From: Salinivirgaceae bacterium
GTDB taxonomy: Bacteria > Bacteroidota > Bacteroidia > Bacteroidales > Salinivirgaceae
Assembly: GCA_027858775.1 (NCBI GenBank)
Contig: JAQICA010000013.1
Span: forward strand, 1-64,000
Length of the DNA stretch: 64,000 nucleotides
Direction: 5' to 3'
The position numbers and the translations under genes were made by a program. The notes beneath the pieces were generated by a model that saw only the letters and a program-made list of their open reading frames with translations, had not been told where the DNA came from and searched no databases. How positions within the stretch are numbered: position 1 is the first letter of the stretch; each line of letters opens with the position of its first letter. Below, piece after piece: positions 21,664 to 57,348 of the stretch.

Positions 21664-23178
21664 CTAGAACTGAAAATAAATAAATGGTTGAATATTGGCC
21701 GACTGTGCCTGATAGAGAATAAACACAACAAGAACAATAATTCCTACTTTAAGATACCAGGGTACCCGGATAAAACCATTGATATACAGTCGTTTTACAG
21801 TAGAAGGCAGCCAGTGAAAAACAAATCCTATAAGCATAATCAGGAAAATGTATTTGTAGCCGTCAATATATTCAAAGGTGCTTCCCCACCGCCAGTCAGA
21901 GGAAATTTGCTGCAGCATATTTTTCACCCTGTCGGTGCTGGTAGCTCTAAAAAATATCCATGCAAATGAAACAATATGAAAGGTGAAAAATATAGACAAT
22001 GCGCGTCCCCACTTACCGGGGAGTTTAAAGTGCACACGGGCTTTTACAAACTTTTCTACAGCCAGTGCCACTCCATGTATTGCACCCCAAATAATAAATC
22101 GCATATTTGCACCGTGCCATAATCCACCTAAAACCATGGTAATAAACAAGTTGGTATACGTCCGTAAAGTTCCGCGCCGATTGCCACCCAGTGGAATATA
22201 GAGATAATCCTTTAGCCAACTGGAGAGGGAAATGTGCCACCGGTGCCAAAAATCGGTAATGCTGGTGGCCTTGTAGGGCGAACGAAAGTTGATGGGCAAC
22301 CGGAAACCCAGCAGCAAAGCAACCCCGATGGCAATATCGGTATAACCGCTAAAATCGCAATAAATTTGTATGGAATAGCCATAAACAGCCATAAGATTCT
22401 CAAATCCACTATAAAGTAGTGGTTGCTCAAATACACGATCGACAAAATTGACCGAAACATAATCGCTAATTACAATTTTCTTTACTAATCCGTTTAAAAT
22501 CAAAAATAAAGCATACCCAAACTCGTAGGCACTAAGCTTAAACTTCCGGTATATTTGAGGTACAAATTCTGCTGCCCGCACAATGGGTCCTGCCACTAAC
22601 TGCGGAAAAAATGAAACATAAAATCCAAAATCGAGGATGTTTTTTACTGGTTTTACTTTATAACGGTAAATATCGACGGCGTAACTTATTGTCTGAAATG
22701 TGTAGAACGAAATACCAACGGGTAGTATAATGGTGTTTACATCAAATTCCGATTTTGAAACACCGTTTACAGCCATGGCAAGATAATTTTTCATCTCCCA
22801 ATCGATTCCGGTAAGCGTAGAAACGAGGTCACCAATCAAATATGCATACTTAAAATATGCGAGAACAAACAAGTTGATAAAAACACTCAAGGCAACAAAT
22901 AATTTTCTGCGAAGGGGAATATAATTGTTATAAATTGCTTGCCCAATAAAATAGTCTGTGATCGTACTAAAAACAAGAAGGAAAAAATAGTAGCCACCAC
23001 ACTTGTAATAAAAAAAGAGGCTTACTGCAAACAGCCAAACATTGCGTAGTTGCATGCGTTTTTGCAGTGCAGAAAACCCGACCATCACAATAAGGAAGAA
23101 AACCCAGAAGCTCCAATGTGTAAATATCATTGGTGCTTTTGAATTAAAGGTGAATATTTGTGATAAATAGTCGATCAT
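21664..23178 (-). CDS. MBOAT family O-acyltransferase (AlgI/PatA-like)
   Basis: SITDFWHRWHISLSSWLKDYLYIPLGGNRRG and LGGLWHGANMRFIIWGAIHGVAL. Confidence 0.92.
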   Translation of the reverse strand: MIDYLSQIFTFNSKAPMIFTHWSFWVFFLIVMVGFSALQKRMQLRNVWLFAVSLFFYYKCGGYYFFLLVFSTITDYFIGQAIYNNYIPLRRKLFVALSVFINLFVLAYFKYAYLIGDLVSTLTGIDWEMKNYLAMAVNGVSKSEFDVNTIILPVGISFYTFQTISYAVDIYRYKVKPVKNILDFGFYVSFFPQLVAGPIVRAAEFVPQIYRKFKLSAYEFGYALFLILNGLVKKIVISDYVSVNFVDRVFEQPLLYSGFENLMAVYGYSIQIYCDFSGYTDIAIGVALLLGFRLPINFRSPYKATSITDFWHRWHISLSSWLKDYLYIPLGGNRRGTLRTYTNLFITMVLGGLWHGANMRFIIWGAIHGVALAVEKFVKARVHFKLPGKWGRALSIFFTFHIVSFAWIFFRATSTDRVKNMLQQISSDWRWGSTFEYIDGYKYIFLIMLIGFVFHWLPSTVKRLYINGFIRVPWYLKVGIIVLVVFILYQAQSANIQPFIYFQF

Positions 23179-23189
23179 TATACCTTCTG

Positions 23190-24410
23190 TTACTCGTTTT
23201 TCACAGGGAAATATTGTTTTTCAAAATACTTAAGGAGTGCATTAAAAAACAAATCGCCCTGTAATCTGTATCCTTTCGTAGAAAGGTGAACTAAATCCCT
23301 GGCTCCCAAGCCATAACGTCGCCATTGCAAAACAGACTCGTAGCCGCCCATTATTTCATAAAAATCCCAAACAGCGCATTGATGCTCCCTGGCTATTTCT
23401 TTGATTATCTGACCGGCCTTTTCCACATGCATATTTGCCGCGGCTCTACGGACAAAATGGTCTCCCGGAGTGGTTAAAATTATTGCTTTTTCGGGAAAAA
23501 CCTTACGAATATCGGCAATTAAACGGGAGTAATATTCGCGAAAAGCTGGTAAATCCGGATTATCACTGTATATATCATTAGTACCCAACGACATAACAAT
23601 AACATCGGGTGTTACAAATCGTAAAAATCGTGATAAATTATCACACATTACAAAATCTTTGGCTCTGGCACCATTTAAACCTAAGGCGTGATAAGTTATG
23701 CCCGGCAATGAATTTTTCAACCATACGGCAAATAATTCAAATGGTACCGAATCTCCCCGCCGATTGAGTGTTATTTCCACATTTTTTGTGAAAGTTGTAA
23801 GTGTAAGTGCCACCCGCCCATATCCTTTTTTTAGATGAACCCACCGTTTACCGGGAGTAAGCAGATTGACAGTATCGCTAGCGTGATACCAAAACTCTAT
23901 CTCGTTGAATTCCGTATTTATTGCATCGTCTTTTTGTTTTACCCGAAGTGTGATTAGCGAATCGGTTGTGGTTAATTTTAGTGGAATAATTCCTGTTTTG
24001 GAATCACTCGTTTTTAACGCATTAACCACCTGCCAATTGTTTTCCGATTCAATAATGTAATTTCCCGGATTATTTGTCTCTGCAAGGTTATACGGGAATA
24101 CAATTCCCCGGGCTCCTTCTGCTCCAGCCGAAAAACTTTGTACACGTTGTCGCACTCGCCCCGTAAAAAAGTCGGCCTGTATATGAGAATCGCCTAAATG
24201 CAGAATTTCCAATTTTGTATTCTTCCCCACAACAATATCCTCCCACTTACTGAAAAATGCAGCAAAACCAATAGCATTTTCAATTTGTTCTAATTGATTT
24301 TTTTTATAATGAATAAAGGGATATTGATCTATATCGTAAGGGTAATCCTGAGCTAAAGAGGCTGTTAAGGTGAGAAAAAATATGACAAATAAAAATAACA
24401 AATCGCGCAT
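23190..24410 (-). CDS. Secreted SGNH/GDSL esterase-acyltransferase-like protein
   Basis: Signal peptide; ILHLGDSHIQADFFTGRVRQR; MSLGTNDIYS; RDLVHLSTKGYRLQG. Confidence 0.85.
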   Translation of the reverse strand: MRDLLFLFVIFFLTLTASLAQDYPYDIDQYPFIHYKKNQLEQIENAIGFAAFFSKWEDIVVGKNTKLEILHLGDSHIQADFFTGRVRQRVQSFSAGAEGARGIVFPYNLAETNNPGNYIIESENNWQVVNALKTSDSKTGIIPLKLTTTDSLITLRVKQKDDAINTEFNEIEFWYHASDTVNLLTPGKRWVHLKKGYGRVALTLTTFTKNVEITLNRRGDSVPFELFAVWLKNSLPGITYHALGLNGARAKDFVMCDNLSRFLRFVTPDVIVMSLGTNDIYSDNPDLPAFREYYSRLIADIRKVFPEKAIILTTPGDHFVRRAAANMHVEKAGQIIKEIAREHQCAVWDFYEIMGGYESVLQWRRYGLGARDLVHLSTKGYRLQGDLFFNALLKYFEKQYFPVKNE

Positions 24411-24435
24411 ATACTACTAAATTTCAACCCTCCGG

Positions 24436-25917
24436 CTATTTTTCTTTAAACTGATTATAATCGTACATTATAGCATTGTACATCATTTGAGCAACAATAC
24501 TTGCACCGCGATAATTAAAATGGGTAAAGTCTTTACGAGCCAATGACGGTTCAGAAAAAACCCATGCCGGCATTGAGTTATGTCCGCCCATAGCTTCGTA
24601 CATATCCCAAAATGCACAATTACTTTTAAACGCAGCATTGCGCTGTGCATCACGAATTTTTGTAATATTCGGATAAGACTCGTACCATCCGTTTACTTTG
24701 CGCGACATATCGCTCACTCCTACTACCAAAACCGGAATATTGCCTGCAGCCTTTTTCAAATGTTTTAATTGTCTGATTAATAAGCGTTCGTAAAAGCCAT
24801 AATGGTTAACAATGTGGGGAACAACATTAACACCATATTGAAATACAATAAATTTAACGTTTAATTGCTTAAAAAAACGTGCCAGAACTTGTTCGTCTAT
24901 TTTTGTAAACTCCGCTCCCCGACTTCCCCGCCATGCAATATTATCTACCGCAATACCTGTAGGCTGATCAAGTGTAAGCGCATAAAAACTTGGCAGATCT
25001 TGCCCCGCCACTTTAAATGTAAGGTCTTGGGGAGTATGATTGAGCTGCACACCAAAAAACTGCAAAGGTCCTGTCCCTTCAACAAGATCGGTGAGCAAAA
25101 GCGAATCGCGCTCATAAATGGACAGCTCAAATTGTCCACCACCATTTCCAAAAAAGAGTCGGACCCACTCAAAGTGTCGTACGGACAAATAACTGTATTT
25201 TGAGATTTTATAGTTTAAAAGCCCTTCGGTCAGGGAATCGCTCTCGTTAAGCGTAGCGCACGAACCTAAAATACCGAAGTTGCCATTCGAAAAACTGGAA
25301 TCTTTTCGTAGCATTACACTATGTTTTGCCCACGGACCCGATGTCTCAATTTGCATGCTGGAGCTTTCTGTTACAGGCTTATAACAAGGAAGTAATCCGG
25401 GACCACTTCCGCCGTAAGCTTTTTGAAAACGGTTTCGCAGGTAACGGGTAATTCGATCGCCCTCAATTTGAGAATCACCGTAATGGAGAATTCGAATCAA
25501 CGATTTTTTAACATTTCCCGATTTAAGCTCCTGAAAAAACGGATGAAACATATTCGACTTACCGGAGGGATACTCAATAGGTTGTATTTTCTTTTTTAAT
25601 GATGCTGACTGCGCTCTAACCGTATCAATTTTCTGTGCGAACTGGTCATCATCTTTATCAGGCAAAGAGTCCTCTTCTACGTTAATTACCTGATCTTGCA
25701 AACTGTCGGTTTCTTTGGCTACCGAAATAATACTATCGATATTTGCATATACAGGTTCATTTGCCGTAAGGCTCTCCAGTTTGGCAAATTTTAAGCGTTT
25801 ACTTTGCCCTAAATTTATACCGTCTGATGGGAAAATAAGCGACAACAAAGCCAATGCAGCCAGAACCAAGGTTAAAAAAGCAACAATATTCCATGGTTTA
25901 ACCGGCTTAGCATCCAT
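24436..25917 (-). CDS. Membrane-anchored SGNH/GDSL family protein
   Basis: N-terminal TM; ILHYGDSQIEGDRITRYLRNRF; RKDFTHFNYRGASIVAQ. Confidence 0.82.
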   Translation of the reverse strand: MDAKPVKPWNIVAFLTLVLAALALLSLIFPSDGINLGQSKRLKFAKLESLTANEPVYANIDSIISVAKETDSLQDQVINVEEDSLPDKDDDQFAQKIDTVRAQSASLKKKIQPIEYPSGKSNMFHPFFQELKSGNVKKSLIRILHYGDSQIEGDRITRYLRNRFQKAYGGSGPGLLPCYKPVTESSSMQIETSGPWAKHSVMLRKDSSFSNGNFGILGSCATLNESDSLTEGLLNYKISKYSYLSVRHFEWVRLFFGNGGGQFELSIYERDSLLLTDLVEGTGPLQFFGVQLNHTPQDLTFKVAGQDLPSFYALTLDQPTGIAVDNIAWRGSRGAEFTKIDEQVLARFFKQLNVKFIVFQYGVNVVPHIVNHYGFYERLLIRQLKHLKKAAGNIPVLVVGVSDMSRKVNGWYESYPNITKIRDAQRNAAFKSNCAFWDMYEAMGGHNSMPAWVFSEPSLARKDFTHFNYRGASIVAQMMYNAIMYDYNQFKEK

Positions 25918-25921
25918 AAGG

Positions 25922-27544
25922 CTAGTTCAGTAGTTTAACTTTTATTCGCTGTCCGGGCTTTAAGTATCTTCCTGAAGAAAGATTATTCATTTGAAGGATA
26001 TCGCGATCGGTTATGTCATCAAATTTCTTGGCAATTTCCCACAACGTATCACCTTTTTTCAAAGTATAATACTCATATTCTGCATCTTCCGGATAGTTTT
26101 TATTGTGGGTTTTTGTGGTTACAGCAACGGTTTTCCCAATTCGTTTTTGCTTTTCAGTAAACGATAGTTGATTAATATCGCTGTAATTGGCTGATCTTGA
26201 TTTGGGGACATAAACTACTAATTTTTGTCCCGATCGAATTACATTCCCACGAATTCCGTTCCAGTGGCGTAAATCACTAATTCGCACATTGTACCACTCA
26301 GAAATAAAGCCTAAATTATCGCCTGGCTTCACGGTATACGTCATGCGTTCATAATTTCCTGAAGGGGCATCGCCATAGTAACGCTGTGTATTTGGTGTTT
26401 GTGTTAAGGCTTTAGTATTAAAAAACACCGAATCTTTATACGCATAAATTGAGTCTTCCAACGATATAAACTCTGTAGCAAGCATATTTGGTAAGCGTAA
26501 AGGGTAAGCTTTCCCTCCTGGAATAATATTTCGCCTGTATTGTGGGTTCAAATCTTGTAGCTTTTTAAGCGGAATTTGCATAACCTCAGCAACTTGTCCC
26601 AAGTGCAACTTTGCAGTTACATTTACAGTATCGGTAATTAGTGGCATTTCAATTTTACGTGCACGTAAATTTAACTCTTGTTGATGGTTAAAAATGTATA
26701 TAACAGCTATAAAGCCGGGCACATAGCCCCTTGTTTCTCTTGGTAAATAGTAATAAATATCCCAAAAATTCGTCTTCCCTCCGCTACGCCTAATGGCTTT
26801 ATTAACATTACCGGGACCACAATTATAGGCTGCCAACGCCAGTGTCCAGTCATCGAAAATGGCGTAGAGCGATTCCAGGTATTGAGCAGCTGCATAGGTA
26901 GAAGCAGTCACATCTCGACGTTCATCAACGAATGAGGTTATCTCCATATTTAAAAACCTTCCGGTGGCATACATAAACTGCCATAAACCGGTGGCACCAA
27001 CTCTCGATACGGCTCGTGGATTAAGGGCCGATTCTATAATAGGTAAGTATTTCAACTCCATCGGCAAATTATAGCTATCGAGAACTTCTTCAAAATGTGG
27101 AAAATAATATTCAGACAACCCAAGCACAGTTTCTGTTAATTCGCGCTTATCTTGCAAGTACACCTTAAAATACGCCCGTACAATCTTATTGTATGTCATA
27201 TCGAAAAATACGGGCATAGTTGCCATATTGCTCATTATGACACTGTCGGATGGTAAATACCCAACGGTAGATTGAGTGTCGATATCGACCGTTTCCGTTG
27301 TATCGAAGTAAGAAACAGAACGACTTACATACCATGAATGCAATAAACTGTCATAATCTGTCGATAGCTTTTTCAAAGCAGTTTGCTCGGCAATACGGAC
27401 CGTATCAATTTGACCACTTAGTGCAAAAAGCACGGTTGAAAAACTAATCAGTATAATAGTTGAAAAAAATTTTATCATTGGATTGTGAGTTAAAAATCGT
27501 AATTCTGGGGTTTGGTACGAATATAAAATAATCTTGTGTAGCAT
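25922..27544 (-). CDS. MltD-like lytic transglycosylase with two LysM domains
   Basis: ESALNPRAVSRVGATGLWQFMYATGRFLNM (GEWL fold); C-terminal LysM repeats YTVKPGDNLGFISEWYNV and YTLKKGDTLWEIAKKF. Confidence 0.92.
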   Translation of the reverse strand: MLHKIILYSYQTPELRFLTHNPMIKFFSTIILISFSTVLFALSGQIDTVRIAEQTALKKLSTDYDSLLHSWYVSRSVSYFDTTETVDIDTQSTVGYLPSDSVIMSNMATMPVFFDMTYNKIVRAYFKVYLQDKRELTETVLGLSEYYFPHFEEVLDSYNLPMELKYLPIIESALNPRAVSRVGATGLWQFMYATGRFLNMEITSFVDERRDVTASTYAAAQYLESLYAIFDDWTLALAAYNCGPGNVNKAIRRSGGKTNFWDIYYYLPRETRGYVPGFIAVIYIFNHQQELNLRARKIEMPLITDTVNVTAKLHLGQVAEVMQIPLKKLQDLNPQYRRNIIPGGKAYPLRLPNMLATEFISLEDSIYAYKDSVFFNTKALTQTPNTQRYYGDAPSGNYERMTYTVKPGDNLGFISEWYNVRISDLRHWNGIRGNVIRSGQKLVVYVPKSRSANYSDINQLSFTEKQKRIGKTVAVTTKTHNKNYPEDAEYEYYTLKKGDTLWEIAKKFDDITDRDILQMNNLSSGRYLKPGQRIKVKLLN

Positions 27545-48887: not shown

Positions 48888-50717
48888 TTATTTCCGTATC
48901 GTTATTGTCTGTCCGCGTACAGCCTTAAATACAACCTGGTTTTGTAATGAATCTTTTTGAATTATTGCTTTTCCTACAGAAGCATTTACTTTTATCGGTT
49001 CAAAATCAAGGTTTAAACATACATCATCAACTTCAACATTTTCGGAGCCAGCCACAAACACAACTATTTTATTATTACTGCTTTTAACATAAAACCGGAG
49101 CATCATCAAATTCTTTCGAAAACTCGAAATCTCATAGGCAGAAGCAATCCAGGTATCATCATTTTTCACCATCTTGAAAAGATTTCCCAAGGCTGTAATC
49201 GTTGTATCATTATTACCGACATACCCCGGATGTCCCTGATAAACCATGACTCCCCCATAAGGCTTTACAGCGTAATTCCAGTAGTTTTCCAGGTATTTAT
49301 CATAAAGTTGAGTTTTTGCGAATAGTTTACGCGGCGATTGTTTCCTGAGTGTTTCCACATTTTTTAAGAAATAATAATCGTCATGGTAGGTTGGAGCTAG
49401 CTCTATAATGTCTGTGGAATGATAAAATCCTTCATTGCCCACAACTATATTATGGGGAACTACACTACCGTGAATGAACTTCAAATTATTGGCGCCGATA
49501 CTACTTTCAAAGGTGTAATTCTGTTCAGACAGAGCCATCATTCCCCAAAATCCCGGCATTGTGTATGGGAAGCGGAAACCGATAAAATCTTGTTCCCAAA
49601 CTTGTTCGTTCTTGAGAATATCGCTAACAGATTGGGAATAATTAAAATTACGATAGTTATCAAAAGCATATCCGTTACTTTGTAAATGAATGCTTTCTTT
49701 TTGCAAAAAATGTCGAATATCTTCAGGTACATTTCCATTAACAAAATAGTCGGCTGTAATTTTATATTTTTTTAAAACCTTTTGAACATGTTTATAATTC
49801 TTAAGTTTCCCACCGGCATTCATTGTCACACAGAAGGCATATTGATGACCTCCCGGCCATGGGTTAAGCTGCAGAGGGATGTTGTTTTTTGAGTGAAAAT
49901 CTTCCAAAACAGCATGATAAAACCCCGATATCTTGTTTGTGCTAAGCAATCCCCCTTCATCAGCCGGATGCAGAAAATCCGATGAAGCCAGTAAGTAGGC
50001 AGTTCCATTGCCATAATGGTTTTTAACAATGGCCGGTATTGTGTCCGTTTTATTGACCCAATTAGCTAATATTTCAACATGGTCACTTATCAGCCTATCG
50101 GGAACCAATGTATAAAAATATTTACCGGCTTTGGATCTCATGTATTGGCTTGTTTCGCCACTGAGATGTCCATAAACCTGAAAACCTTCCATGTTTTTCT
50201 CTGTGAGCTCAAGTCCGTAACATTCGGCTAAAGGATAATTAGCCGCTGCGAGTTTTCCATGCAAAACGATACGGTCAGTGCCATCGGTTTTGTTTCGACC
50301 CACATTATCGCCGGAAATCAAAATTCCTCCGGAGTGTACAAATTTGCGAAGGTTCTCCATCTCAGCTTTCGACATAAAAGTAAGTGAGTATTTACGGTCT
50401 GCATCGTGGTAGCCGCGAGCTGTTGAGAGAATTATTACATTAAACTTCTTCAATTCTCTGGGCTGATACAAGATATCTCTGGGTTCAAGCCGAACAGTGG
50501 CGCCTTTCTGATTAAAGGACTGCAACGCAATAACAATTCCTTTGGGCAAAGTGGTTTTTGAGCTTTCCAGCCCCGTTGTGATAATCAAAACACGGGGAAG
50601 TTGGTGCTGTGGGTTTGAATAATCAACACTGCTAGTACTTTTTTCTGAACGGCTACATGAAAATAAGGTCAGCCCAATCAGAAATAAGCTTATAAATTTT
50701 ATTGTTTGCATTACCAT
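48888..50717 (-). CDS. Lipoprotein: ThuA/GATase-like domain + degenerate polysaccharide-deacetylase-like domain
   Basis: Lipobox LTLFSC; VLIITTGLESSKTTLPKG...NVIILSTARGYHD...GGILISGDNVG; then YAFCVTMNAGGKLKNYKHVQKVLKKYKITADYFVNGN. Confidence 0.65.
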   Translation of the reverse strand: MVMQTIKFISLFLIGLTLFSCSRSEKSTSSVDYSNPQHQLPRVLIITTGLESSKTTLPKGIVIALQSFNQKGATVRLEPRDILYQPRELKKFNVIILSTARGYHDADRKYSLTFMSKAEMENLRKFVHSGGILISGDNVGRNKTDGTDRIVLHGKLAAANYPLAECYGLELTEKNMEGFQVYGHLSGETSQYMRSKAGKYFYTLVPDRLISDHVEILANWVNKTDTIPAIVKNHYGNGTAYLLASSDFLHPADEGGLLSTNKISGFYHAVLEDFHSKNNIPLQLNPWPGGHQYAFCVTMNAGGKLKNYKHVQKVLKKYKITADYFVNGNVPEDIRHFLQKESIHLQSNGYAFDNYRNFNYSQSVSDILKNEQVWEQDFIGFRFPYTMPGFWGMMALSEQNYTFESSIGANNLKFIHGSVVPHNIVVGNEGFYHSTDIIELAPTYHDDYYFLKNVETLRKQSPRKLFAKTQLYDKYLENYWNYAVKPYGGVMVYQGHPGYVGNNDTTITALGNLFKMVKNDDTWIASAYEISSFRKNLMMLRFYVKSSNNKIVVFVAGSENVEVDDVCLNLDFEPIKVNASVGKAIIQKDSLQNQVVFKAVRGQTITIRK

Positions 50718-53700
50718 AGTTGTTTTAATGTTATTTCGCTACCGGGTTCGATGTTTAAAAACAAGGTTCCGGTTGTATTATGCAAGGTATATTGTCCATT
50801 TTCTCTGATAACCTGAATGAAAGGAGCCGGAGTTTTGTATAAAATGGTCAGCGGATGATTATAAACAGAAGGATCCAATGAAGTTTCAACATGTAAAAAT
50901 GTTCTTAATCCACGGCGCGAAATATTCAGTCTTGTGTTTTTCATTTCTTTCCGATAACGGAACACATCCCATTCATTGGCCGTCCAGTATCCGTTATTGC
51001 GTGCCAGGCGAACCTGCCATTTAAAATCATCTTTGCTAACGAAAAGATCGGATCCTTTTTTGCCAATGGTATCTTCTGTCAAATAAAGATAGTTGAAAAC
51101 CTGCCACTTATTTTGATTCCGTTTTAAAATGGAATCGAATTGGGAAGTGGTGTAATGATAGGCGTTATAATTGATAAATGCCAATTTGCCTATTTGGTGC
51201 TTCCCGGGTTTTGTTGTTCGGCTGTAAGCAGGCTTTCGCCAGGAACGGTCTCCGAATGAGTGTGTAATGATAAATTTATCGAGGTCTAATTCGGTTTTTT
51301 CTTCAATCCGGGAATATTGCCCGATGAGATCGGCACTTTGCGAATTCATTTCTATTGTGGGAACGTGTCCATTCTCCTGTAACTGATGTAGAGCATTGAA
51401 GCTGAATCGTTTTCTGCGCCCAGTTTTGTCTAACCTATAACGTCCGGGAGCCTGGCCTATAACATCCGGGACTACCCCAAAAGAACCGCTGATATGATAT
51501 TTATCCAAAACAGGCATGGCATAATCGATTTGGGAATAATCTGAGCTTTGGAAACTGAAAGAAACAGCTCCAACTTTATTTTGATACCACGGAGCGATAG
51601 AAAATGATTGGTTATCGGGGATTTTTATCGTATCGGTAAGGTTTATATGATGTTCGGCAATACGAAAATAATTTTTCAAACTATCATAAAGTGGTTTGAG
51701 TCTGGATGTCCATGTTGGCTCTTGCCAGCTTTCCCACTGATAATGGGAATATCCATTGACTGGAAAGCGATGAAGAATATTATTGTTTTTGTCGGTGATA
51801 AAACAAATTAGATGGAAACCATCGGTTTGTGAAGCTTCAATTGTTGCGGTTCCTTTTTGGTCGTCCAGCACATAGTTTTTTGCCGGGTCGCTTACGTTAA
51901 GCAAATGCCAGTCGAGTCGTAACTCAAACTCCCCGTTTTGGAAGTACCAATCGGCATTGGAAGTAATGGCCTGATTGCTTTTCCCAAATTTAAGCGGACT
52001 GCGATTGACAATAATGGAATCATACGTTTGCCCGGTTAATGATATTCTACCACGATTAGTTAACAACTCCTGCATAACGAATTTTCCGTTATCATTTGGC
52101 TGAGAAGCATAAATGGGAATAGAATCATTGTAAATATCAGTGAATACTGAATATTGCTCGTCAACCAGGATGTTGGCAGAATCTTGATTGAAGAATTCCG
52201 CCAAAAATTCAAATCCGCGTTCAAATTTTTCATTGGTGAATGGCAACCGATGGTCACCTTTTTTTTCATCGTAGGTGTCTATCGCAATATAAAGGTTGTG
52301 TTTGGTAAAATTCAAATCGCTCCATTTCCCGTTCAAATAAAAGTATGCGGGATCGGCATGTAATTGATAACTATTTTGTTGTTCTTGTTTTATTTTGTTT
52401 GCCCAATCTTTGGGGTGTCCGTCGATGGTTCGTTCGCGGCTCTCCAGGGCAAGAATACCAAAGCTTTGTTCGGGATTTTCCATGTTATGCCACAATTTGC
52501 GATCGTGAAAGGGTACTTCAAAATCCATAACCAACCAGTTATGCTTAAACCACTCGTCGGCCCACTCAAAATAGAGTGCTCCGGCACAGCCAGATTGAAA
52601 AATATCTCTCGTCAGTGTCATTGAAAGTCGAGCCTGTTCTGCTTCGGAATGTCCGCCCTGATCAAAACCCAGTGGAGTAACATGGCTGGTTCCCCGGCTG
52701 CTGGGCAGGCCATATTCAGCTATAACTAAAGGAATTCCTTCATGATGCGATTTTAAATCTTGCAAATAACCGTAATAATTATCTTTTTGTCCCGACGCAT
52801 TGGTTGCCTGCGCGTATTCCGGCTTTAGATAAACATAGTCCGGGTAGTAAGGATAAGCATGATAAGAGGCGAAAATACCGGGAATAAACATTTCGCTACT
52901 GTAGAAATTTTTAAAATGAATAGACTCCAAATCATTATCAAACTCTCTTACTTTTTCATTTTCAATAATTTCGGTATTGTGATACATGGGGTCTAAGGGA
53001 AGCCAGTTGACAAAAGACAACGGATGTTGCATTTTATAGGTTTGGGTTTCGTAAAGCACGGTAAAGTCCATAATTTCGGCCAGCCAGACTTCCATAGGAT
53101 TGCCATTTGGCATAGAAATAAAATCGCCATAATAATGATCGACAGAGTGTTTTTGATTTGTGATAAAAACGCCGTTGGGCTCCCATTCGCGCCCCAACAA
53201 CAGTCCAGTAACATAACGGGAAACATCGGTTGAATAAACTCCGGATGCTTTCCCTTTTTTCGGATATAATACGCTATTTCCATGTAGGACATCAATCACA
53301 TCCATGATTTCTTCCTTAAAATTACGGGTAAATTTAGCATTACGATAGTCGTGCTCTGGGGGTTGTGTGGCCCATACGCCCTGCGCCAGATAAAGCGGTT
53401 GATCCTGATTGTGAAGATTATATTGCGCAAAAGCTTCGTAAAATACCGGAGGCAAAATAGTGTAAATACGAATTACGTTGGCATTCATACGACCAATTTG
53501 CTGAAACCATTGCATATATTGGTCATAGGTCATAGCAAATTCTGCAGGGAATTTCCCCGGCAAAGCCACGCCCAGATTAACGCCCTTCATCAAAAATGTT
53601 TTCCAGTGGGGATTAGATTTTTGATAACCATAATCTAACATTTTGAAATAATTTCCCGCGGCACGAAAATAATAATCTGCTTGAGCAGAGAGTTGCTGAA

Positions 53701-53863
53701 GGTTTTCACGGGATTCTTTTTCCACTAAGGAGCCATTATCATCCTCAATATATTCCGTGACTACTTGTGCCTTACGTATGCTGGATTCATGCTGCATCAT
53801 TTTATAGACGATGAACGCAAGCAATGCCAGAAGCAATAATATAATGGGAATTTTACGGTTCAT
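50711..53863 (-). CDS. Membrane-anchored GH (clan-A TIM barrel) fused to a degenerate NodB-like domain
   Basis: 1050 aa; NVIRIYTILPPVFYEAF, GLLLGREWEPNG (acid/base-like E), IPLVIAEYGLPSSRG (nucleophile-like E); C-terminal AVSFSFQSSDYSQIDYAMPVLDKYHISGSFGVVPDVIG. Confidence 0.7.
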   Translation of the reverse strand: MNRKIPIILLLLALLAFIVYKMMQHESSIRKAQVVTEYIEDDNGSLVEKESRENLQQLSAQADYYFRAAGNYFKMLDYGYQKSNPHWKTFLMKGVNLGVALPGKFPAEFAMTYDQYMQWFQQIGRMNANVIRIYTILPPVFYEAFAQYNLHNQDQPLYLAQGVWATQPPEHDYRNAKFTRNFKEEIMDVIDVLHGNSVLYPKKGKASGVYSTDVSRYVTGLLLGREWEPNGVFITNQKHSVDHYYGDFISMPNGNPMEVWLAEIMDFTVLYETQTYKMQHPLSFVNWLPLDPMYHNTEIIENEKVREFDNDLESIHFKNFYSSEMFIPGIFASYHAYPYYPDYVYLKPEYAQATNASGQKDNYYGYLQDLKSHHEGIPLVIAEYGLPSSRGTSHVTPLGFDQGGHSEAEQARLSMTLTRDIFQSGCAGALYFEWADEWFKHNWLVMDFEVPFHDRKLWHNMENPEQSFGILALESRERTIDGHPKDWANKIKQEQQNSYQLHADPAYFYLNGKWSDLNFTKHNLYIAIDTYDEKKGDHRLPFTNEKFERGFEFLAEFFNQDSANILVDEQYSVFTDIYNDSIPIYASQPNDNGKFVMQELLTNRGRISLTGQTYDSIIVNRSPLKFGKSNQAITSNADWYFQNGEFELRLDWHLLNVSDPAKNYVLDDQKGTATIEASQTDGFHLICFITDKNNNILHRFPVNGYSHYQWESWQEPTWTSRLKPLYDSLKNYFRIAEHHINLTDTIKIPDNQSFSIAPWYQNKVGAVSFSFQSSDYSQIDYAMPVLDKYHISGSFGVVPDVIGQAPGRYRLDKTGRRKRFSFNALHQLQENGHVPTIEMNSQSADLIGQYSRIEEKTELDLDKFIITHSFGDRSWRKPAYSRTTKPGKHQIGKLAFINYNAYHYTTSQFDSILKRNQNKWQVFNYLYLTEDTIGKKGSDLFVSKDDFKWQVRLARNNGYWTANEWDVFRYRKEMKNTRLNISRRGLRTFLHVETSLDPSVYNHPLTILYKTPAPFIQVIRENGQYTLHNTTGTLFLNIEPGSEITLKQLW

Positions 53864-53865
53864 AA

Positions 53866-55434
53866 TCAGAATTTTCCTGAGATTGTAATAAAACCAACGA
53901 CATTTTGGTAATAAGGATTGTAAAACCGGCTAACCCCGGCCGACAAAGAAACTGCATCCCAATTATATCCGGCTTCAAACGAAGCTGACCAATTATCTGC
54001 GTCTATCGTCACGCTTTTTTCTACCTCGTTGTTAGAACTAGCCTGTTCGTTGCCGCCAGAAACCGTTTCCATATAGTAAAATTTTTCTGTGCCAAAATGA
54101 TAGACATACATGCCATAAATATAGAAATTTTTGAATGAATGATAGAGCGATACTGAAGGTCCTGTAAGCAAGCGATCATTGGGTGTGTAATACGAGGGAG
54201 AAATATACTTGTAGTCGAAGTACGAATGGTTGATACCGACTTTAACATCTGGCGTTTTAATAATTTTGCAATGAATACTTATGTTGTAAGAGAAGTACGG
54301 ATTGGTTCCAATTTCATATGGATCTGAAGAGTATTTGCGAATTTGCTTTTCATCAACCTGTCCGGCATTCAAATCTACATTCATCGACAGTCGCGAATAT
54401 TCCAGTTCTAATTTGTTAGAAATGGCATGGCGCCCCACCTGGTTCCAATAGTAAAAATAATGGTATCCGGCATCCATGGTGTTTTCCAACTTAAGTTTAT
54501 TAAAGCTGTTTTGGTATTTCCATGTTAAGCCATAGGTGGAAAAAAGATCATCGCTAACGCTATAACCGCCGTAGACACTTATATTATGGTGTGCTGCCAG
54601 CCAGCTTGCTTTAATCCAACTATTATCGAACCAACGCAGGGTATCGCTCGCGTCATCGTTAATAAAATCACGTCTGGAATAATCTAACAGGAAATTGGCT
54701 GAAATTTGAAACTGATCGCCCAACCGTTTTTGGAGCGAATACCGTTGCACAAATGCATCAATTTGATAAGTGTCTTCTTTTTCTTGTAAATATTGATACT
54801 TACCACTGAAATGATATTTCAGCGCATTTTTTACTTTTTGGTGCGCTTTTTTTATGATTTGATTTTCCGGGTCTAATTTAAGTGCTTTCCGGTAATACTT
54901 TTGAGCTGTGGCAGGTTTTGAGTTCCAATAAAACATTTTCCCCAGCCCTGCCCAAACTTGAGAATAAGTGCTATCTATTTGATTAGCGTGACGATAAACA
55001 TTGATGGCTTCCTGAATTTGGCCGTCATAGCTTAGTGCTTTGGCCAGCAAAAGATATTCCGGGACGTGTTCAGGTAAAAGCTGTACGGCACGTCTGGCCG
55101 TATTTATTGCTGCATCCATTTTCCCCTGCCGAATGAAACATTTCGTAAAGCCATTTAAAGCTTCCACATCGGTGGAATCATTTCTGTATATCTTTTGATA
55201 ATAATACAAAGCTGAATCGCTGTTTCCGGTTTTATAATACAGCCTGCCTAAAGCCAAACGAGCATCGTAATCGTTGATGTCGAGTTCGAGAATAGCCGCA
55301 TACTCCCCTATGGCCTTTTTTAATTTTCCGTCATGCATGGCTTGATATCCGGCCTTTCGATGATCTTCTTGACTCTGCTGAGCGTAGAGCGACAATGTTA
55401 AAAATAAAATTAACAGAGAAAAAGTTGTTTTCAT
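53866..55434 (-). CDS. TPR + YaiO-like outer-membrane beta-barrel protein
   Basis: Signal peptide, N-terminal TPRs, C-terminal amphipathic strands (LEYSRLSMNVDLNAGQVDE..., terminal VVGFITISGKF). Confidence 0.82.
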   Translation of the reverse strand: MKTTFSLLILFLTLSLYAQQSQEDHRKAGYQAMHDGKLKKAIGEYAAILELDINDYDARLALGRLYYKTGNSDSALYYYQKIYRNDSTDVEALNGFTKCFIRQGKMDAAINTARRAVQLLPEHVPEYLLLAKALSYDGQIQEAINVYRHANQIDSTYSQVWAGLGKMFYWNSKPATAQKYYRKALKLDPENQIIKKAHQKVKNALKYHFSGKYQYLQEKEDTYQIDAFVQRYSLQKRLGDQFQISANFLLDYSRRDFINDDASDTLRWFDNSWIKASWLAAHHNISVYGGYSVSDDLFSTYGLTWKYQNSFNKLKLENTMDAGYHYFYYWNQVGRHAISNKLELEYSRLSMNVDLNAGQVDEKQIRKYSSDPYEIGTNPYFSYNISIHCKIIKTPDVKVGINHSYFDYKYISPSYYTPNDRLLTGPSVSLYHSFKNFYIYGMYVYHFGTEKFYYMETVSGGNEQASSNNEVEKSVTIDADNWSASFEAGYNWDAVSLSAGVSRFYNPYYQNVVGFITISGKF

Positions 55435-56888
55435 TGTTCTATTCCTTTTCTTTCAAATTTTTTCCATTCACTTTTTTTCCCGATAACATTTACAAAACCG
55501 TTGAGTTGGGCTATCACCTTATAAAATGAATAAGTAAATTCTCCCAAAATACGAGTAAGAATTAATGTTAACCAGTCCTTATAAGTTTTGTAGCGCAGGG
55601 CATCCCGGTTTGTTTCAGATTGAGCTAAGCTCCAGTTTTCTACAATTGCAGTAATTCCACTAGTGATAATTGCTGTAAGCAAAAGAATACCTATCAACAT
55701 CAATACAACCCATTGTAGATTAAGCATATCCATCAGTCCGGCTATGATAATAAAAATTATAGCCAGCACTTTCATAAGCGGAGCCATCATTTCAAATATC
55801 AGATAATAAGGCATGCCCAACAGGCCTGTTGCTCCATATCGGGGTTCAAAAATCATAGCACGGTGAATGCGAAGAGATTCTATCAATCCCTGATGCCAGC
55901 GGGCACGCTGTTTAAAAAGGTTTTTGCCTTTCTCCGGAACTTCCGTCCAACAAACGGGTCCGGGAATGAAACGCGTTTTTGCTTTTTGGTTGTTTTCATA
56001 CCGGTATTTGAATAAGCGCACAACAATTTCCATATCCTCACAAACCGTTTGCTTTCCTGTGCCTATATGTTTTTTTATATAGGGATGACGATTTTGTTCA
56101 CTCAAAAAACCGCCGATTTTTAACAGCTCATCGCGCCGAAACATTGAAAATGCACCGGACATCAGCAATAAAGCATTAATTTTACTCAGCCCCATGCGCG
56201 AAACCATAAATGATTTGATGTATTCGAGTATCTGCCATAAAACCCAAATATTTTTCGGCATCCGGGAGCTTATTACCTGGTTGTTTTGAAGTATAACATC
56301 ATTGGAAGCAGCCAGTTGTCCGCCGGATACCATGGTGCGAAAATCTTCAATAAAAGGCCTCACTACTGATTTTAAAGCTTGATTATCAAGCAACGAGTCT
56401 GCGTCTATAGTGCAAACATATCGGCCAGTTGCATAATTAATGCCTGCATTCAGCGAGTCGGCTTTTCCGCCATTAAATTTGTCAATAACCGTTAGCTTTA
56501 ACTCCCGGTGCCTATACACATTACGAATTTTTGATGTGTTCAGTGTAGGTGTATCATTTTTTACCTGTTGTAAATCGAGTGGAAATTTTTTTAACAGCTT
56601 TTCCAGCGTATCATCAGAAGAGCCGTCGTTTACTACAATAAGCTCATAATCAGGATAATCAAGACGAAGGAGCATATCGGCACAATAAGCAATGGAAACC
56701 TCTTCATTATAAGCAGGCACAATAATAGATACCGGGTGCTGATCCCATTTGTAATCTGTTGATGCCGGTTTTTGCCGTCGGCGGAAGACTACAAAAGAGT
56801 ATAGAAATAATCCTACATCGATAAGCAGATATAAGACAAAGTATACGATAAACAGTTTTTCCAGTATTCGTAATATAAAATAGATCAT
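55431..56888 (-). CDS. Processive GT2 polysaccharide synthase (PgaC/HAS-like)
   Basis: VSIIVPAYNEEVSIAYC; VNDGSSDDT; GGKADSLNAGINYATGRYVCTIDADSLL; CEDMEIVVRL; QRARWHQG; C-terminal TM helices. Confidence 0.9.
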   Translation of the reverse strand: MIYFILRILEKLFIVYFVLYLLIDVGLFLYSFVVFRRRQKPASTDYKWDQHPVSIIVPAYNEEVSIAYCADMLLRLDYPDYELIVVNDGSSDDTLEKLLKKFPLDLQQVKNDTPTLNTSKIRNVYRHRELKLTVIDKFNGGKADSLNAGINYATGRYVCTIDADSLLDNQALKSVVRPFIEDFRTMVSGGQLAASNDVILQNNQVISSRMPKNIWVLWQILEYIKSFMVSRMGLSKINALLLMSGAFSMFRRDELLKIGGFLSEQNRHPYIKKHIGTGKQTVCEDMEIVVRLFKYRYENNQKAKTRFIPGPVCWTEVPEKGKNLFKQRARWHQGLIESLRIHRAMIFEPRYGATGLLGMPYYLIFEMMAPLMKVLAIIFIIIAGLMDMLNLQWVVLMLIGILLLTAIITSGITAIVENWSLAQSETNRDALRYKTYKDWLTLILTRILGEFTYSFYKVIAQLNGFVNVIGKKSEWKKFERKGIEQ

Positions 56889-56919: not shown

Positions 56920-57348
56920 TCAATCTACTCGTAAAGTTTTCTCTATAATCTCTTCAACTTCATTTGCAGATTCAGTCATCACCTTTTCGATAGTTCCACC
57001 AAAATCTGAAGCTACCATTAATGAATTCATTCGTGAAATATACGTCTTTCCATCAGTTTTTTTATAAATGCTAACCCGGCAAGGCATCATTGCTGATACT
57101 ATACGTTCTGTGTCTTTTTCCAAAATTCTACTTGAATGATTCGGGTGACACAGCGAAATGACTTTTACAGGTAATACATGTTTACCATGCTTTTCCATTG
57201 TTTTTTGCAAATTGTATATATTTGATATTTTCCATGATTTCTTCTCAATTTCTGTTGCTAATTTATCCAGGGTCTAGTTAAAATCAGTTGGACTTAAATT
57301 CTCAATAAACGTATAATTCATCATGTTACTTTGCACTTTTTTAACCAT
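56920..57348 (-). pseudogene. DUF302 protein interrupted by a single in-frame amber codon
   Basis: Reading from ATG 57348: MVKKVQSNMMNYTFIENLSPTDFN*TLDKLATEIEKKSWKISNIYNLQKTMEKHGKHVLPVKVISLCHP...; TAG at 57274-57276, otherwise open for 143 codons. Confidence 0.75.

Follow-up and report, generated by a model that had tools for sequence, protein, structure and literature searches.

Two described polysaccharide exporters that combine a hydrolase with a deacetylase come closest to the locus reported here. PelA, of the Pel system, consists of a hydrolase, a mixed alpha/beta domain, a deacetylase, and a beta-rich domain, with D530, H600, and H604 as its metal residues (PMC12022489); PgaB, of the Pga system, joins a NodB2-type deacetylase to a hydrolase domain of its own. 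In both proteins, catalytic and chain-holding roles are hard to separate. NodB enzymes of family CE4 require two aspartates in motif MT1 and two histidines in motif MT2, with one aspartate and both histidines binding the metal (PMC10967932). The CE4 pseudoenzymes Ba0150 (4M1B) and EcCDA (2VYO) have NodB folds without these MT1/MT2 catalytic and metal residues (PMC10967932). Bacteroidetes are not mentioned in the main text of a published operon survey (PMC7112194). In the literature that we searched, which is a part of the whole, we found no named system with the composition described below; looking for such an operon in Bacteroidota, or for the term "pseudo-deacetylase," gave at most general papers.

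The four-gene locus lies in a 64,000-nucleotide stretch of a Salinivirgaceae contig (JAQICA010000013.1), hereafter called the window. Our preferred reading, to which we assign a probability of roughly 0.6, is that of a synthase-dependent exopolysaccharide operon whose NodB domains have been turned into polymer-binding or docking modules and whose polymer is probably not deacetylated by its own machinery.

Organization of the locus

Four minus-strand open reading frames encode a GT2 synthase (485 aa), a TPR/beta-barrel protein (522 aa), a GH/NodB fusion (1050 aa), and a lipoprotein (609 aa); all features of the operon given below are on this strand. The first two genes overlap by 4 nt (55431-55434), the second and third are separated by 2 nt (53864-53865), and the third and fourth overlap by 7 nt (50711-50717). 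The initial annotation, which had reported four codirectional genes with gaps or overlaps of 2 to 7 nt, was exact in coordinates and junctions, and its domain calls also stand: GT2 (by PF00535), a TPR array, a GH TIM barrel with NodB (by structure model), and a lipoprotein with GATase-like and NodB parts, including the position of the GH before the deacetylase-like domain, which the AlphaFold model confirms. Directly upstream, at 56920-57324 (minus strand), lies a DUF302 remnant whose stop is some 31 nt from the beginning of the GT2 gene. Its reading frame is broken by an in-frame TAG at 57274-57276, and its C-terminal part matches PF03625 (50.8 bits); this is either a pseudogene or a sequencing error. 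Downstream of the operon, genes for an ABC-type ATPase and an FtsX permease make up a unit of their own. Elsewhere in the window (21664-27544, minus strand), an MBOAT O-acyltransferase is found near an SLT/LysM transglycosylase gene.

The GT2 synthase (55431-56888; PF00535, E = 2.6e-25) is a PgaC-like protein, predicted to lie in the inner membrane, in which the full processive motif set (D, DxD, ED, and Q(Q/R)xRW) is present and invariant in an alignment of relatives (D88, D162/D164, E284-D285, and Q327-R-x-R-W331), from which we predict that the enzyme is processive. Among E. coli references, it is closest to PgaC (24% identity, E = 1.5e-18; hhalign, 99.8%), followed by YaiP and BcsA, and its best NCBIfam match, PgaC_IcaA, scores 118 bits, far under the cutoff of 422.

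The candidate outer-membrane exporter (53866-55434) has a signal peptide, a TPR array (residues 24 to 200), and a barrel-sized C-terminal region (residues 205 to 522). Similarity to BcsC and PgaA is confined to the TPRs, with only that region matching the PgaA NCBIfam model (27 bits, against a cutoff of 366.65), and a profile of the protein did not match the PgaA barrel (hhalign probability, 3%). Composition and position suggest that the C-terminal 318 residues are a barrel.

Over its whole 1050 aa, the GH/NodB protein (50711-53863), which is predicted to be periplasmic with an N-terminal membrane anchor, has no Pfam or NCBIfam match. Its AlphaFold model, of moderate confidence (mean pLDDT of 82, with a weak stretch at residues 436 to 464), contains a GH-A-like TIM barrel (residues 85 to 480; 52424-53611), a beta-sandwich (residues 490 to 735; 51659-52396), a NodB-like domain (residues 750 to 965; 50969-51616), and a beta-domain. 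The model places one glutamate after beta4 (E226, the putative acid/base) and another at beta7 (E383, the putative nucleophile), both of them invariant among relatives; this pair and the TIM barrel are those of a clan GH-A hydrolase, which would be a retaining enzyme. The nearest solved fold is GH157, in laminari-oligosaccharide complexes (E = 1.6e-13), next to an endo-laminarinase from Formosa, GH17, a GH5 mannanase, and GH2, with TM-scores so modest that the substrate cannot be read from them. Sequence comparison detected no similarity of the hydrolase to PgaB. A PDB sequence search with this single protein returned only pentatricopeptide matches to residues 791 to 859, which were spurious and were discarded.

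The lipoprotein (48888-50717; lipobox Cys21) combines a GATase/GH42M-like mixed alpha/beta domain (residues 41 to 275; 49893-50597; PF08532, 28.7 bits) with a NodB-like domain (residues 285 to 540; 49098-49865). Its AlphaFold model (pLDDT of 91) matches NodB enzymes, GH42 middle domains, and NDST1 in Foldseek, and it matches PelA (9CGY) over its full length and across three domains (E = 2e-9, TMq = 0.47); at 8% identity, the likeness is one of architecture, not of sequence. Set beside the domain order of PelA, this three-domain match makes the modeled lipoprotein look like PelA without its hydrolase domain.

Conservation of the gene order

A scan of one genome per species, seeded with six peptides (so that locus counts are lower bounds), yielded at least 34 loci that encode a relative of the GH/NodB fusion. 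Where loci were sufficiently long, the order GT2, TPR/beta-barrel, GH/NodB, GATase/NodB was found on one strand in 18 of 19, the sole exception being a WOR-3 locus (L039) with a lipoprotein upstream and none downstream. The hosts of these 18 loci belong, within Bacteroidota, to Bacteroidales, Flavobacteriales, Saprospiraceae, and Chitinophagales and, outside it, to Calditrichota, Delongbacteria, and Electryoneota (Electryonea). The co-occurrence in relatives on which the initial annotation had made its reading depend was thus observed. The operon is not a chance arrangement, since homologues of all four genes recur in the same order and on the same strand in 18 loci from several phyla. The full fusion is rare all the same: among 398 genomes sampled from the phylum, it was found in the window alone, with GH-only cousins in eight other genomes.

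In the Calditrichota, Delongbacteria, and Electryonea loci, a gene with a Big_7 (Ig-fold) domain is inserted between the GT2 and TPR genes. Big_7 genes beside the operon outside Bacteroidota (L031:6486-7439, L044:6201-7151, L034:6624-7268, and L039:2234-3148) possibly encode another polymer-binding or assembly part. The GH-only cousins (L068 to L076) are about 850 aa long, one with a T9SS sorting tail; a PgaC-like GT2 is nearby in five of these nine loci, some of which also have HEAT-repeat and YaiO-type TPR-barrel genes or a response regulator, and they apparently represent a second, likewise unnamed, polysaccharide system. In three further loci (L041, L042, and L046, from Gemmatimonadales and a deltaproteobacterial metagenome-assembled genome [MAG]), a fusion that lacks NodB has the same GH domain immediately after a TPR array.

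Catalytic state and history of the NodB domains

Catalytic state was scored as D,D,H,H (DDHH) on alignments of each NodB type. In the window, the fused NodB reads QSEQ (Q772, S773, E838, and Q842) and the lipoprotein NodB reads NANF (N300, A301, N348, and F352); with the catalytic aspartate and the metal-binding Asp/His/His gone from both, both domains are predicted to be inactive. The initial annotation, which had called them deacetylase-like, was right about the fold but overlooked this loss. Across relatives, the downstream lipoprotein has DDHH in none of 23 cases, its first aspartate being asparagine in all 23, and the fused NodB has it only in L025, L027, L031, L034, L039, and L044, being degenerate in the other loci.

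Intact sites were found in separate genes, which the parts list of the initial annotation, although correct, had missed. Nine loci (L017, L020, L022, L023, L029, L030, L033, L035, and L037) carry a stand-alone NodB upstream of the GT2 gene, DDHH in 9/9, and in five of them (L017, L023, L029, L033, and L035), it is preceded by a second GATase/NodB lipoprotein; upstream lipoproteins are DDHH in 6/6. The stand-alone NodB is a paralogue of the fused domain (23 to 27% identity), and the upstream lipoprotein is a paralogue of the downstream one (32 to 35%). One genome, that of L037 (G470), has several active lipoprotein and stand-alone NodB copies on different contigs (C22, C69, C185, C228, and C291), which suggests multiple paralogous loci.

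Whole-genome searches divided the relatives into three groups. Of the six with an intact fused domain, five were covered by this search (L025, L027, L031, L034, and L044), and in these no stand-alone NodB was found. Seven genomes have a stand-alone NodB and a fused copy that is either dead (L019, L020, L024, L030, L035, and L037) or truncated (L038). In the genomes of the window, L013, L014, L015, L016, and L032, the fused domain is dead (truncated in L015) and no stand-alone gene was found; these absences rest on draft MAGs, that of the window being 93% complete, and the five genomes of its clade agree. With in-locus cases included, the fused domain is intact in 0/11 genomes with a stand-alone gene versus 5/10 without one (Fisher P = 0.012, or 0.022 after collapsing close relatives, on counts that are not independent); the fused copy is dead in 11/11 cases where an intact stand-alone NodB is present.

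In a NodB tree, the dead fused domains form one clade (support, 100/100) and the stand-alone NodBs another (97/94), and in a GH tree, the window falls inside a 100/100 clade of five loci with neither an intact fused nor a stand-alone NodB. The simplest history is that fused catalysis was lost once within Bacteroidota while a separate gene carried the activity, and that this gene later disappeared from the clade of the window and possibly from L032. In our preferred reading, the ancestral fused NodB was probably an active deacetylase before catalysis moved to that gene. The active NodB enzymes of relatives would imply an acetylated, probably N-acetylated, sugar.

Proposed mechanism

On the basis of family membership, the GT2 enzyme would polymerize a beta-linked sugar chain and extrude it across the inner membrane, after which the membrane-anchored GH/NodB protein may bind the chain in the periplasm and trim or clear it through its putative retaining GH-A hydrolase. 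The lipoprotein and the fused NodB, both of which have lost the metal site, would most likely hold the chain and steer it to the TPR/beta-barrel protein for export through the outer membrane. Fused NodB activity would have passed to a separate gene in Bacteroidota and disappeared in the clade of the window; because of this loss, the machinery of the operon probably no longer removes acetyl groups from the polymer. We propose more tentatively, at somewhat under even odds, that these loci form a distinct exporter class in which deacetylase domains are fixed as noncatalytic binding or docking modules, the chemistry having moved to a separate gene and been dropped in one lineage.

Selection and alternative explanations

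If the modification step had become dispensable, the deacetylase domains could simply be drifting toward pseudogenes. The fused dead NodB does evolve faster than the adjacent GH (across the same 36 locus pairs, identities are 49% for stand-alone NodB, 35% for fused NodB, and 69% for GH). However, the reading frames are intact in all relatives, and for close pairs (dN/dS being saturated for more distant ones), dN/dS is 0.09 to 0.10 for the downstream lipoprotein NodB (three pairs) and 0.13 to 0.31 for the fused NodB, which is looser but also well under 1; the GH domain gives 0.07 to 0.09. Purifying selection is acting on the dead NodB of the lipoprotein. Its MT3 Arg/Pro (R382 and P384), E439, and D447 are kept in 23/23 and the MT5 histidine in 19/23 (the window retains R382, P384, D447, and H496), and N300 is fixed in 23/23. 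Retention of these groove residues while the aspartate is fixed to asparagine suggests a binding role, and plain decay of the locus, very unlikely in our estimation, was rejected on the selection evidence.

It is also conceivable, although improbable, that the polymer is deacetylated in trans by a PgaB/IcaB-like CE4 enzyme encoded elsewhere, with the NodBs of the operon merely presenting the chain. Three canonical CE4 proteins are encoded on other contigs (C228, C263, and C31), two of them similar to the PgaB model (95 bits for C228 and 79 bits for C31), and with no second close GT2 found in the genome, they have no other obvious synthase; they are, however, unlinked to the operon and are not orthologues of its stand-alone NodB (about 27 to 28% identity over part of the length). 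A true, rearranged Pga system making partially deacetylated PNAG would account for PgaC as the nearest E. coli reference of the GT2 and for the presence of TPR-barrel and GH/NodB parts, but we find it hardly credible given the distance to the PgaC and PgaA cutoffs (118 versus 422 and 27 versus 367), a clan GH-A hydrolase without a PgaB match, dead NodBs in the NodB1 motif order, and the absence of PgaD. Least probable of all is that the GT2 synthesizes a glycan or glycolipid that stays bound to the cell, with the TPR/barrel protein as a surface anchor rather than an exporter: the export role is indirectly deduced and the GH-only cousins adjoin YaiO-type barrels and HEAT proteins, but a periplasmic hydrolase, a TPR-barrel, and a processive GT2 together are the make-up of synthase-dependent exporters (Pga, Bcs, and Pel).

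Comparison with known systems

With Pga, the operon shares a PgaC-like GT2, a candidate TPR-plus-barrel exporter, and a periplasmic protein joining a hydrolase to NodB. In contrast to Pga, its hydrolase is N-terminal and of clan GH-A, its NodB domains follow the motif order of NodB1 (MT5 C-terminal, by alignment against PMC10967932) instead of that of NodB2 in PgaB/IcaB and are dead in the window, an additional PelA-like lipoprotein is present, and PgaD is missing. By profile, the operon has neither the PgaA TPR-porin nor PgaB, with its NodB2 deacetylase and hydrolase domain. The synthase-dependent export logic proposed by the initial annotation is thus supported by the gene composition, but its description of the locus as rearranged Pga-type is not supported, since the hydrolase is of clan GH-A without PgaB similarity, the motif order is NodB1, the PgaA profile gives 27 bits, and the lipoprotein resembles PelA.

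Pel (PelA: GH166, mixed alpha/beta, CE21, beta-rich; PDB 9CGY) offers the closest parallel to the lipoprotein, which corresponds to the last three domains of PelA in the same order, and in Pel, too, GH and deacetylase-like domains go together with a TPR-barrel exporter, the GH coming before the deacetylase. While the PelA-like alpha/beta, CE, and beta-rich protein is present, the synthase of the operon is a GT2 and not PelF (GT4), the PelA-type hydrolase domain is lacking, the lipoprotein is 8% identical to PelA and has lost the metal site, and other Pel partners were not seen. NDST1 matches the alpha/beta and deacetylase region of the lipoprotein in Foldseek, and CE18, the family of Agd3, is reportedly related to PelA at a distance (PMC12022489); NDST1 and Agd3 are eukaryotic, active enzymes, and the similarity seen with NDST1 is at the fold level only.

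The operon adds to the known exporters an unassigned hydrolase family (without a Pfam or NCBIfam match) and a probable export route in Bacteroidota that are for the most part uncultured. Its deacetylase domains, predicted to be inactive, are the interesting part, the fold apparently having been reused for polymer handling. The relatives provide a natural series (active fused domain; dead fused domain with an active stand-alone one; dead fused domain and no stand-alone one) for asking whether exporters need their deacetylase domains as catalysts or as parts that hold and steer the chain. The operon would work like the Pga, Bcs, and Pel systems, yet it lacks defining features of Pga (the PgaA profile, PgaB hydrolase, and NodB2 topology) and of Pel (the PelF GT4 synthase), and we class it as a variant of the synthase-dependent systems. 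Like the CE4 pseudoenzymes, its NodB folds have lost the MT1/MT2 catalytic and metal residues; unlike those isolated proteins, its two pseudo-NodBs are established parts of a conserved export operon, with active paralogues present in its relatives.
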